Shown here in pieces: positions 26,766 to 36,531 of a stretch of 42,105 nt of DNA. The stretch is from an uncultured Prochlorococcus sp. (lineage in GTDB: Bacteria > Cyanobacteriota > Cyanobacteriia > PCC-6307 > Cyanobiaceae), in contig CACAST010000006.1 of assembly GCA_902535185.1 (NCBI GenBank), positions 1-42,105 of the forward strand, given 5' to 3'. The notes under the pieces are model-generated. The model saw only the letters and a program-made list of their open reading frames with translations. It did not search any database and had not been told where the DNA came from. Positions within the stretch are counted from its first letter, which is position 1. Each line of letters begins with the position of its first letter. Position numbers and translations under genes: made by a program.

Positions 26766-28619
26766 TTAAATATAGTTTGCGACTTTTACTTCTGAGCGGT
26801 TGAGCAAGTCTTGGATATCTTCGGTATCTATAGTTTCTCTTTCAATTAGCATTTGAGCCATTTCGTCAAGAACAGTTCTATTGTCTGTTAAAACTTTTGT
26901 AGCTCTCTTATAGGCAACATCAACAAGTTCTGAAACCTCTACATCAATTGTTGCAGCTGTGTCTTCAGAGAAGTCTCTTGTAGAACTCATATCTCTTCCG
27001 AGAAACATTCCACCTTGAGATTGACCTAGAGCGACTGGACCAATTTTGTCACTCATACCGAATTTAGTGATCATTTGTCTTGCTACATTGGCAACTTGTT
27101 GTAGATCATTTGAAGCTCCGGTTGTTACCTCTTCTTCGCCATAGACTATTTCTTCAGCAACTCTTCCACCAAGAGCTACAGCCATTTGATTTTGAAGGTA
27201 AGAACGAGAGTAAAGACCAGATTCCATTCTTTCTTCACTTGGAGTAAAGAAGGTTAGACCCCCAGCTTGACCTCTTGGAATAATAGAGACTTTTGCTACT
27301 GGATCATAATCAGGCATTAATGCTCCGACGAGTGCATGACCAGCTTCATGGTAAGCAACTAGTTCTTTTTTCTTATCACTGATGACTCTATCTTTCTTTT
27401 CTGGGCCAGCCATAACTCTTTCAATGGCATCACCGACTTCATCGTTACTTACTTTATCTAAATCTTTTCTAGCTGCTAGTATTGCTGCTTCATTTAAAAG
27501 ATTAGCTAAATCTGCACCAGTAAATCCTGGTGTTCTTCTGGCAACTTTGTCTAAATCAACGTCTTTTGAAAGAGTTTTATCTTTTGCATGAACATTTAAT
27601 ATCTGCAATCTTCCAGCATAATCTGGCCGATCTACTGTTACCTGCCTATCGAATCTTCCAGGACGCATTAACGCTGAATCTAAGACATCTGGTCTGTTGG
27701 TTGCAGCAACTATTATTATTCCTGAATTACCTTCAAAACCATCCATTTCGGTTAAGAGTTGATTTAATGTTTGCTCTCTTTCATCATTTCCTCCGCCCAT
27801 ACCAGCTCCTCTTTGTCTACCAACTGCATCTATTTCATCAATAAACACAATACAAGGAGCGTTCTTTTTAGCTTGTTCAAAAAGATCTCTAACTCTACTA
27901 GCTCCAACCCCAACAAACATCTCTACAAATTCTGAACCAGATATTGAGAAAAAAGGTACACCTGCTTCTCCAGCTACTGCTTTTGCTAGTAATGTTTTTC
28001 CTGTACCAGGAGGGCCAACAAGAAGAACTCCTTTTGGAATTTTTGCTCCGACTGCGGTAAATCTATCTGGACTCTTAAGAAAATCTACTACTTCTGTGAG
28101 TTCTAATTTTGCACCTTCAACACCAGCAACATCTGAAAAAGTTACTTGTGTAGAGGGTTCCATTTGCAATCTAGCTTTGCTTTTACCAAAACTCATGGCA
28201 GGGTTGCCACCCCCAGCATTACCACTTTGGGATCTTCTGAAAAGAAAAAATAGGCCTCCAATCAAAAGAATTGGGAAAATTAAGCTACTTATAGCCTGCT
28301 GCCATGGGTTGGCTAATTTTGTAGGAGTTACAGCTATATCTACATTATTCTCAGTCAGTATTTTTAATAAATCTTTGTCAGGGGCTAAATTAACCTCAGA
28401 TCTGCTCCCATCATTTTCAACAACTTGAGCTGTAGCATTATCTGGAGATATTAGAACTCTACTTATTTCTTTATCTTGTACTGCCTCTATAAAATCACTA
28501 TATCTCAAGGTCTTTGTAGAGCTTTCAGTACTAGGTTTATCAAAAACTGAAGTACCAATAAAAATTACAGTAATAACAGCTAGGACATAAAGTCCTACGT
28601 TTCTCCAACGTTTGTTCAC
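26766..28619 (-). CDS. ftsH: ATP-dependent zinc metalloprotease FtsH
   Basis: Membrane AAA+ protease; cyanobacterial FtsH complexes remove damaged D1 during PSII repair. The 617 residues show two N-terminal membrane segments (about 8-25 and 108-127) flanking a lumenal or periplasmic part, the AAA module with GPPGTGKT (~200), the pore motif [14 protein letters not shown] and the second-region ATNRPDVLD, and the protease domain with zinc site HEAGH (~422). It starts at GTG 28619; this start gives the usual N-terminus and there is no clear Shine-Dalgarno. Which of the several FtsH paralogues it is cannot be fixed here. It sits between psbA and psbO, which makes a PSII role attractive but unproven. 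Confidence 0.95.
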
Positions 28620-34205: not shown

Positions 34206-34790
34206 TTATTGTAATTTAGGTGTTCGGTCACCTTTTAATCTTTTACTTACACTCCTACTATTTTTGAGATACCATCGCCATTTTATATTTTTTGCCTTTG
34301 ATATGCCAATTCTCGTAGTTTGAATAAGATCTTTTTCATCAATAATAGAGTCTCTTGGAGAAATCCATAAAGATTTATTTTTAAGAACTTCAAGTGAGTT
34401 AAATGAAATGTCTACACTGAATGTTCTAGTTACTAGACCAGGTCCAGAAGCTAATCTTTCATTCTTATTAGAGATAGAAACTGATCTTATCAAAACACCA
34501 CTAGCAAAATTTTCTTTATCAGTAACTATGTTTAAACAATGATGAATGCCATAAGATTTGTAAATATAAAATGTGCCAGGTTTACCAAATAATGATTTGT
34601 TTGATTCAGTCATTTTGCGGTAGCCATGACAAGCCTCTTCTTCCTGTGAATAAGCTTCAGTTTCAACAATAACCCCTTTAACTTGATCTATCTCATTATT
34701 TTTTTTTATGAGGTGACAGCCTATTAAATCAGGAGCAACAAGTTTAGAGTGCCGATAAAAAAAATTTTTTGGAAATAATTCTTCTTCTAT
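34206..34790 (-). CDS. mpg: 3-methyladenine DNA glycosylase (AAG/MPG family), no standard start codon
   Basis: Excises alkylated and deaminated purines for base-excision repair. The reading frame is open from 34793 to the stop at 34206, after a TGA at 34794-34796. It holds the full family pattern: [12 protein letters not shown], the catalytic Glu in [45 protein letters not shown] and [12 protein letters not shown]. There is no ATG, GTG or TTG in frame before the internal ATG at 34611-34613, which lies after the catalytic Glu and would give a dead 135-residue piece. ATA at 34788-34790 is where a start gives the normal 194 residues. It may initiate at ATA, or the start has been lost and the gene is newly damaged. 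Confidence 0.85.
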
Positions 34791-34961
34791 TTTTCAATAT
34801 CTATCTAATAACATATTTAGCTGAGAAAAATAATTAAGGCTATTAATTATTATTGATTTTCAAAAAGATGTGATGATTTTTTTAAATTATTTAAAATTCA
34901 AAGGATATCTAAATAAGTTGTTCTTAATAAACTATTATTTAATAAGAAAGATATTAAAGGT

Positions 34962-35255
34962 ATGACAAAAATAACTAAAGAAGAAGTAAAAAAAGTTGCT
35001 CATTTAGCGAGATTAGAACTTAACGAGAATGAAATTAATAATCATGCAGAACAATTAGAAAAGATATTGGATTATATAAGACAACTTGAAAAAATTGATA
35101 CAGATGCTGTCCCCTGTACAACGAGAGCTATAGAGGTTGTAAATGTATTTAGAAAAGACGAAAAGAAAAATTCTGATTGCAATGAAGAACTTTTAGAATT
35201 GGGTCCATCGAAAGAAAATAAATATTTTAAAGTACCAAAAATTATTAATGAATGA
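34962..35255 (+). CDS. gatC: Asp/Glu-tRNA amidotransferase subunit C
   Basis: Small subunit that stabilises GatAB, which turns misacylated Glu-tRNA(Gln) into Gln-tRNA(Gln). The 97 residues match the family: ITKEEVKKVAHLARLELNEN at the start, ILDYIRQLEKIDTD in the middle, VFRKDE, and the C-terminal KYFKVPKIINE. gatA and gatB are not in the window. It converges on crtR with 5 bases between the ends. Confidence 0.95.
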   Translation: MTKITKEEVKKVAHLARLELNENEINNHAEQLEKILDYIRQLEKIDTDAVPCTTRAIEVVNVFRKDEKKNSDCNEELLELGPSKENKYFKVPKIINE

Positions 35256-35260
35256 GTAAG

Positions 35261-36292
35261 TTAGTTGCTTCCAATAAATGTTTTGTTGACTATCTTTAAT
35301 AAAAATTTTTTTATTTTAAAACCTGGATATAAATTTATGATTTTTCTTATTTTCCCCCTCTTTTTGCTATGACTCCTTACACCTATTAATAAATCATAAA
35401 TAAAGTTAAAAATGTCTTCTTTACTTTCAAATATCCCAACCCTTTGAGGGGAACCTTTTTTATCCAATAAAGGCTTAGTTTTTTCATAAGCTATTTTGTA
35501 TTCAAACCAAGGAATCGAAGGCCAAAGATGATGAATGAGATGGTAATTTTGTCCCATTATTAATAAATTCATAAATTTGCTTGGATAAACTCGAGAATTT
35601 ATCCATTTATTTCTTGATCGAAATGGTCTATGTGGTAAATAATCAAAAAATATTCCTAAAGTGACTCCCACCATTAATGCTGGGCCGAACCATAAATTAT
35701 AAATTAAATTCATAAAGTCAAATTTCAAACCTGCCAAAATAATTGTTATGAAAATGGATCTTTCAATTCCCCATTGAAGTAATTCATATTTTCGCCAAAG
35801 TTTTCTTTGAAAGAAAAACACCTCATGATAAAAAAATCTTGGAGCAATTAGCCAAATTGGACCAAAAGTACTGACAATATGATCTGGATCATTTTTGGGG
35901 TGATTTACGTGAATATGATGTTGTAAATGAACTCTCGTAAAAACTGGAAAGCTAAACCCCAATAAAATTGCTGAGCCATGACCCATTGCTTGATTTATCC
36001 AAGGAACTGGATGAGCAGCTTTATGACAGGCATCATGAATAACAGTACCTTCAATATGTAAAGCTAAAAAAGCAGTAGCTACCAGTATAGGTAGAGGCCA
36101 AACACCTCTATACCATTGCCATATGCTTAGAAAAGCAAGAAAATAACCACCAAAAAATAGACCTAATGTTGGATTCCAAAAACTTGGCGGATCTACATAA
36201 TTTTTAATCTCTTTTTGCCAATTAAATGTTTTGGAAGAATTAGTATTTTTCGTTGTATTTTTACTGGTTAAGTTTGAAATCGTTTCTTTTAT
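35261..36292 (-). CDS. crtR: Beta-carotene hydroxylase (CrtR type), no standard start codon
   Basis: Membrane di-iron hydroxylase that adds 3-hydroxyl groups to beta-carotene to make zeaxanthin. The frame is open from 36295 to the stop at 35261 and contains all His boxes: HDACHKAAH, HLQHHIHVNHP and the late NYHLIHHLWPS, plus several membrane helices and DYLPHRPFRSRNKW. The first ATG in frame is at 35984-35986, after the first His box, so it cannot be the true start. Upstream to the in-frame TAA (36296-36298) no ATG, GTG or TTG occurs; ATA at 36290-36292 (followed by AAA GAA ACG) would give 343 residues, the usual length. The N-terminal ~30 residues are a polar Thr/Asn/Lys tail. Identity is secure; the start is not. 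Confidence 0.9.
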   Translation of the reverse strand: MKETISNLTSKNTTKNTNSSKTFNWQKEIKNYVDPPSFWNPTLGLFFGGYFLAFLSIWQWYRGVWPLPILVATAFLALHIEGTVIHDACHKAAHPVPWINQAMGHGSAILLGFSFPVFTRVHLQHHIHVNHPKNDPDHIVSTFGPIWLIAPRFFYHEVFFFQRKLWRKYELLQWGIERSIFITIILAGLKFDFMNLIYNLWFGPALMVGVTLGIFFDYLPHRPFRSRNKWINSRVYPSKFMNLLIMGQNYHLIHHLWPSIPWFEYKIAYEKTKPLLDKKGSPQRVGIFESKEDIFNFIYDLLIGVRSHSKKRGKIRKIINLYPGFKIKKFLLKIVNKTFIGSN

Positions 36293-36449
36293 TCTTTAAA
36301 TAATATAACTAATTTTCACAGATGATTGCTTGTTCAAACATAAAAAATTTCTTTTAAGAGATTTTTAATTTTATTTTAATGTGTCAAATTAATCATCTTG
36401 AGAAAAAAAATTTTTAAAATATACCTCCTTCAATTATTATTTTATTTGA

Positions 36450-36531
36450 GCGGTCGTGGCGGAATTGGTAGACGCGCGAGTTTTAGGTACTCGTATCTTC
36501 GGGTGTGGGAGTTCAAGTCTCCCCGACCGCA
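36450..36531 (+). tRNA. tRNA-Leu (anticodon TAG)
   Basis: The 7-bp acceptor stem is GCGGTCG (36450-36456) with CGACCGC (36524-36530), then discriminator A at 36531. The anticodon stem CGAGT/ACTCG encloses a 7-base loop with TAG at 36484-36486, which reads CUA and other CUN codons. A long variable arm (TATCTTCGGGTGTG region) and the T-arm GTTCAAGTC fit a class II leucine tRNA. CCA is not encoded. Confidence 0.97.

Follow-up and report, generated by a model that had tools for sequence, protein, structure and literature searches.

In Escherichia coli, infC starts with AUU, and an AUH start (AUA, AUU or AUC) lowers initiation. The fMet-tRNA anticodon, CAU, meets a third-position mismatch on AUA, and this pairing is disfavoured by initiation factor 3. 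In contrast to the AUU of E. coli, infC of the Cyanobiaceae starts with ATG in nine of the ten loci read (L261-L270; L263 was unparsed). Work with Staphylococcus aureus, as excerpted for this comparison, describes AUA or AUU starts for infC, ccpN, cvfC1 and citZ, the three that were tested yielding, in poor medium, about 10% as much reporter as with AUG (PMC13009471). According to the same excerpts, the AUH starts of ccpN and cvfC1 are conserved among relatives, the AUA of citZ is conserved in one S. aureus lineage only, and infC, ccpN and cvfC1 carry extended Shine-Dalgarno motifs (PMC13009471).

Starts of this kind have also been described in a cyanobacterium. Proteogenomics of Nostoc sp. 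PCC 7120 assigned ATA or ATT to eight revised genes and ATA to two novel genes on the strength of peptide data, in the sections of that report used here (PMC8557916). Chloroplasts, likewise of a photosynthetic lineage, have GUG and UUG starts that are weak, are said to be conserved across species and have been proposed as a regulatory layer, as far as the excerpted source goes (PMC9845219). Part of a survey of 36 genome groups gives 202 switches from ancestral GUG to AUG among 5,080 (0.0398), against 363 from AUG to GUG among 61,358 (0.0059), and makes AUG-to-AUU switches very rare, at one in 61,358 (PMC5622118). For Prochlorococcus itself, excerpts of one paper describe a lineage with very few regulatory proteins (PMC2518516), and the transcript starts of MED4 have been mapped in another, whose main text does not contain the term "start codon" (PMC5607370). 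The open-licence literature, covered mostly by titles and the beginnings of abstracts, gave nothing on AUA or AUU starts for Prochlorococcus.

The sequence described here, referred to as the window, is a 42,105-nucleotide stretch from an incomplete Prochlorococcus assembly (62 contigs, 64.7% complete). It carries mpg, with the following features at and upstream of the gene.

34206..34790, minus strand: mpg, 3-methyladenine DNA glycosylase, 194 aa when read from ATA (Pfam PF02245, E 9.4e-50, and translation)
34788..34790, minus strand: putative AUA start codon of mpg, the ATA being kept among relatives
34794..34796, minus strand: in-frame TGA immediately upstream of the mpg start, with TAA, TTA, CGA and others in relatives
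34794..34814, minus strand: mini-ORF ATG TTA TTA GAT AGA TAT TGA, its ATG at the exact offset in 80 of 120 distinct sequences
34805..34842, minus strand: conserved block TAGCCT - 17 nt - TAAATA ... TTAG, from column conservation in 38 representatives

On the minus strand, the 5′ edge of the gene reads TGA (34796-34794), AAA (34793-34791) and ATA (34790-34788), and from there the frame stays open to the stop ending at 34206. The sequence-only reading had claimed as much, including an intact catalytic Glu, a 194-residue product from the ATA and the lack of any ATG, GTG or TTG ahead of the catalytic region. All of this held up on translation: the frame is continuous, and its first in-frame ATG, GTG or TTG comes at codon 61 counted from stop to stop, an ATG that lies past a VETEAY motif. 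The match to PF02245 scores 168.9 bits, against a gathering score of 27, and spans model positions 2-180 of 181. VETEAY aligns with the VETEAY of human AAG 1f4r, the human AAG chains having been matched by sequence, and a Glu within the ETEAY motif is what we take to be the catalytic residue. By its full-length domain and this motif, the product is a methylpurine-DNA glycosylase (MPG/AAG, PF02245) of predicted activity. The gene was found in 220 of 266 genomes of the genus, and in 83 of the 87 that are at least 90% complete with at most 5% contamination. From the FF motif onwards, dN/dS is 0.10-0.20 when the window is compared with eight loci from its genus, and 0.35 (at a dS of 1.7) with one locus of another genus. 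The Mpg protein is under purifying selection.

A search among named relatives found orthologues with the same start. The best 80 of 195 relatives were taken, 78 of them titled Prochlorococcus and two (L021 and L025) uncultured Synechococcaceae, and ATA stands at the mpg start in every one: in register in 78, and with one codon lost alongside it in two (L024 and L057). Among these loci are MIT 9401 (L030) and MIT 9314 (L048), presumably cultured strains, most of the other named relatives presumably belonging to single-cell series; some are titled MAG. A local G-to-A mutation pattern and an assembly artefact, both put forward earlier for this site, are excluded by the 80 other loci that share the ATA, MIT 9401 and MIT 9314 included. 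The triplet at the position of the window's TGA varies among the 80 (TAA, TTA, CGA), with single-base length changes there in some. Seventy-three of these loci have no ATG, GTG or TTG from the upstream stop as far as the first FF; the other seven have one.

Widened to further genomes of the same genus code, the comparison had 143 rows and 120 distinct sequences, with named loci placed in the genus by 92-97% identity. The start site reads ATA in 113 of them, ATT in four, ATC in three and ATG in none, so that all 120 are ATH; in five rows the FF anchor had hit an earlier FF, and their ATA, four codons before the anchor, was scored as ATA. In 108 of the 120, the stretch from the upstream stop to the conserved FF motif holds no canonical codon, and in 109 an in-frame stop lies no more than 25 codons upstream of the site. 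The 12 exceptions have a canonical codon 5 to 51 codons ahead of FF. In seven of them (MIT 9314, L048, included) it is the mini-ORF ATG, brought into frame by loss of the stop, and in the remaining five it is TTG or GTG, one of these also having a distant ATG. The codons downstream are more variable than the ATA site, where nearly all rows have Ile, and the preceding AAA codon is almost as invariant (103 of 115).

How much of this constancy is peculiar to the start can be judged from the rest of the gene. The third base of the site is no more constant than that of internal Ile columns (one of which, for example, holds 107 ATA, 8 ATT and 5 ATC among the 120), and Met is rare in well-conserved internal Ile columns too, at zero to one row per column. 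At synonymous third positions of K, E and Q codons, G replaces A in 133 of 3,224 cells over 30 columns, from which about five ATG would be expected in 120, a figure uncorrected for the relatedness of these closely related sequences. What is unusual about mpg, on this comparison, is that it has no canonical start and, at the same time, keeps an Ile codon at the margin of its coding region. The conserved ATH points to a real, weak start rather than to sequencing error.

Beyond the genus, 36 mpg loci were fetched out of 107 genomes with a match, mostly the better-scoring and smaller genomes, and L146, which has no N-terminus, was omitted from the mpg counts. In fifteen of the 36, from nine genus codes, a canonical start is absent ahead of FF, and ATA, ATC or ATT stands at the site or close to it. 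The other 21 have a canonical start, a number that includes three ambiguous loci (L245, L249 and L115). A single-gene mpg tree of 76 rows (55 ATH, 18 canonical, three unlabelled) requires at least eight changes of start type, with 39 of its 73 inner branches unresolved.

The region immediately ahead of the ATA has features of its own. In relatives, the upstream block takes the form TAG[AC]CT, about 17 nt, a GCTAAAAATA-like element and then TTAG (38 representatives), and by eye it is read as a putative promoter or operator. Were it a promoter, the 5′ end of the mpg mRNA would fall about 20 nt ahead of the ATA. The block also holds a partial CTAA...TTAG dyad and could be a promoter with an operator. 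A generic promoter scan did not flag it, giving two sites elsewhere against a shuffle mean of 3.9, and an Rfam scan of window positions 34700-36500 gave no match. The leader RNA from 34812 to 34760 has a minimum free energy of 0 (z +2.0), and the RNA around the crtR start likewise (0, z +1.5); as 0 is the ceiling value, the accompanying shuffle count carries no information. By eye, no Shine-Dalgarno sequence precedes the mpg ATA or the crtR ATT in the window; in this, both genes differ from infC, ccpN and cvfC1 of S. aureus with their extended motifs, according to the excerpts of that work (PMC13009471).

The neighbouring gene crtR had been proposed to share the same odd start, an ATA. Its features are given below.

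35261..36280, minus strand: crtR, beta-carotene hydroxylase, 339 aa when read from ATT (NCBIfam NF045688, 471 bits, just below the cut-off of 475, and translation)
36278..36280, minus strand: putative AUU start codon of crtR, from 101 distinct rows of the genus
36290..36292, minus strand: ATA earlier proposed as the crtR start, not conserved among the relatives compared

The proposal did not survive comparison. Some relatives have ATT, ATC, GTA or ATG at ATA 36292-36290, and in five named loci (L010, L017, L030, L061 and L067) TAA follows it directly. The conserved codon is instead the ATT at 36280-36278, four codons past the non-conserved ATA. Over the 101 distinct rows of the genus in which the N-terminus could be read, this site holds ATT 97 times, ATC once, ATA three times and ATG never. 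These rows exclude 17 cut by locus ends, those without the anchor motif (nine of the genus and 18 of other genera) and duplicates, and the set may hold one genome twice, L001 and L082 probably being one genome. In 94 of the 101, the open frame ahead of the anchor Trp lacks a canonical codon; of the seven that have one, four (L001, L082, L034 and L049) have an ATG adjoining the ATT and three a TTG or ATG farther up. In L001, L034 and L049 the sequence reads GAA ATG ATT TCA, and this ATG abutting the conserved ATT amounts to a natural test of a weak start.

In other genera, the anchor was found in 14 of 32 crtR rows. An ATG stands 21 or 22 codons ahead of the anchor in 13 of the 14 (for example, GCA ATG ACC CAG), L120 being unclear. 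The ATT of the window stands 20 codons before the anchor Trp. From its position where other genera have ATG, ATT 36280-36278 is likely to be the crtR start. The two genes thus differ in codon and in place, and the kind of start is the same. AUA initiation, as originally suggested, is supported by sequence comparison for mpg and unsupported for the crtR ATA.

A genome-wide count of such cases was carried part of the way, over 783 ortholog groups: 389 from the first 400 kb of four genomes (349 present in all four) and 394 pairs from the next 400 kb of two genomes. The first rule asked for conservation, in two or more genomes, over the 6 aa that precede the first canonical codon; it flagged at least 87 of the 389, far too many, because leaders are conserved. 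With 20 aa and at least three genomes, nine of the 389 were left: mpg, crtR, six ORFs opposite the rRNA operon and one antisense ORF. The six were discarded for lying on the opposite strand of the rRNA operon (Rfam), as was the one antisense to a gene read as rplL. A looser rule based on MAFFT left 24 of the 389, eight over the rRNA operon and most of the others with ATGs in differing places. With the rRNA and antisense ORFs removed, only mpg and crtR among the 389 lack, in all the genomes compared, a canonical start close to the conserved core.

Among the 394 pairs, 15 lacked a shared canonical start, and nine of the 15 were read closely; several of the nine were set aside as conserved leaders ahead of an ATG or TTG. 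An STAS anti-sigma antagonist (L310:5507-5869, plus strand) has no ATG, GTG or TTG near its start and, in both genomes, an ATA that GGAGG precedes by 9 nt; one of the two has an ATC ahead of the ATA. For comB, encoding 2-phosphosulfolactate phosphatase (G117 579820-580582, plus strand, across L299/L300), a putative ATT start aligns with residue 1 of NCBIfam PRK00886.1-2 and has AAGGA 7 nt upstream in both genomes. Two further genes, from the 389 groups, are cobS-like (L194:405-1181, minus strand) and scpA-like (L188:9074-9946, plus strand); they share no canonical start among the four genomes, such a start being absent in some of these. Another group, G117_284 (G117 27293-27881), whose gene looks like EF-P, has a conserved in-frame stretch ahead of its ATG in four genomes, perhaps a conserved leader. 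By these alignments, mpg, crtR, the STAS antagonist and comB appear to be good cases, and the ScpA-like gene, pgeF, the TIGR04168 phosphoesterase and cobS are tentative ATH-start candidates. Four good and four tentative cases in 783 groups are a lower bound, as a chance ATG, GTG or TTG near a start hides a gene, and the cases are not independent of relatedness. The earlier argument that two neighbours with the same odd start are unlikely by chance is weaker than claimed, a few more such genes being likely elsewhere.

Taken together with the systems outlined above, the start of mpg is a real and conserved one of an already known kind, AUA and AUU starts being known in other bacteria, Nostoc included. 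In conservation among relatives, it resembles the AUH starts of ccpN and cvfC1 and differs from the AUA of citZ in S. aureus, as excerpted (PMC13009471). The starts in Nostoc are known from peptides, according to the consulted part of that report (PMC8557916), whereas that of mpg comes from sequence comparison; those of chloroplasts differ from it in both codons (GUG and UUG) and genes, as described in the sections used (PMC9845219).

We consider it very probable that AUA is the start codon of Prochlorococcus mpg and that the gene is translated from it. A short, A/U-rich, unfolded leader would let the ribosome bind without a Shine-Dalgarno sequence. Initiation would be weak, and Mpg scarce, because fMet-tRNA pairs with AUA through a mismatch disfavoured by initiation factor 3; that the start does keep Mpg low, whatever maintains it, is likely. 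Low Mpg dosage would then be what selection keeps, and on the point that the weakness is selected we are evenly divided. The same AUA start could also be real with its weakness unselected, an ancestral ATG having been lost, the A/U-rich leader having sufficed and drift having kept the AUA. The counts given above do not prove avoidance of ATG, start type has changed at least eight times over a family whose tree is poorly resolved, and the leader is unfolded, all of which would suit drift. However, were the AUA simply tolerated, reversion might be expected here and there among the 120 sequences, and not one has reverted. Excerpts of the survey of start switches also make GUG to AUG commoner than AUG to GUG, although they carry no figure for AUA (PMC5622118). 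Drift of this kind, which is not exclusive of AUA initiation, seems to us possible but on balance unlikely.

Other proposals would move the start away from the ATA altogether. If translation began at the mini-ORF ATG (34814-34812), mpg could be reached either by readthrough of the TGA or by ribosomes that reinitiate at the AUA, 3 nt past the stop; this ATG is in frame, the mini-ORF stop does lie 3 nt ahead of the ATA, and the seven sequences that have lost the stop join the ATG to mpg. The mini-ORF ATG nevertheless appears not to be essential, since it is present at that offset in just 80 of the 120 distinct sequences and missing there from 40. Deeper rows (L143-L151, for example) have ATA or another codon in place of the ATG and no stop adjoining the start, and the ATG overlaps the promoter-like block, so it may be outside the mRNA. 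Such a route to mpg is improbable. More improbable still is initiation in another frame (for instance, at TTG 34797-34795) and a later shift into the mpg frame, through a frameshift or transcript slippage in the A6T8 run just inside the gene, even though the window's version of the run, AAAAAATTTTTTTT, is slippery. The frame is continuous, the peptide EELFPKN ahead of the run is largely kept in frame 0, the TTG is TTT, TTA or TCG in relatives, and by eye no canonical start is kept in another frame. Moreover, L153-L155, in which the run is broken (AAG AAA AAT TTC TTT), still have ATH at the start site. The incomplete source genome could suggest a sequencing or assembly error, or a decayed mpg, but the agreement of all 80 other named loci and the low dN/dS within the genus already refute this, and its chance is negligible. 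Initiation at the AUA stays the preferred reading.

For annotation, gene callers limited to ATG, GTG and TTG are expected to truncate or miss such genes, and the annotated N-termini of mpg and crtR in Prochlorococcus, a very abundant phototroph, are suspect for that reason. Selection for the weak start, if it exists, would mean that two unrelated enzymes, one of DNA repair and one of carotenoid synthesis, are held down at initiation. It is conceivable, if doubtful, that a small class of Prochlorococcus genes, very roughly 0.5-1% of conserved genes and including mpg, crtR, the STAS anti-sigma antagonist, comB and perhaps cobS and others, is kept under AUA, AUU and AUC starts that act as a shared brake on translation, set by the IF3-to-ribosome ratio. 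ATA, ATT and ATC would then interchange because only "not AUG" matters. If true, such a brake would be a cheap form of global control in a cell with few regulators.
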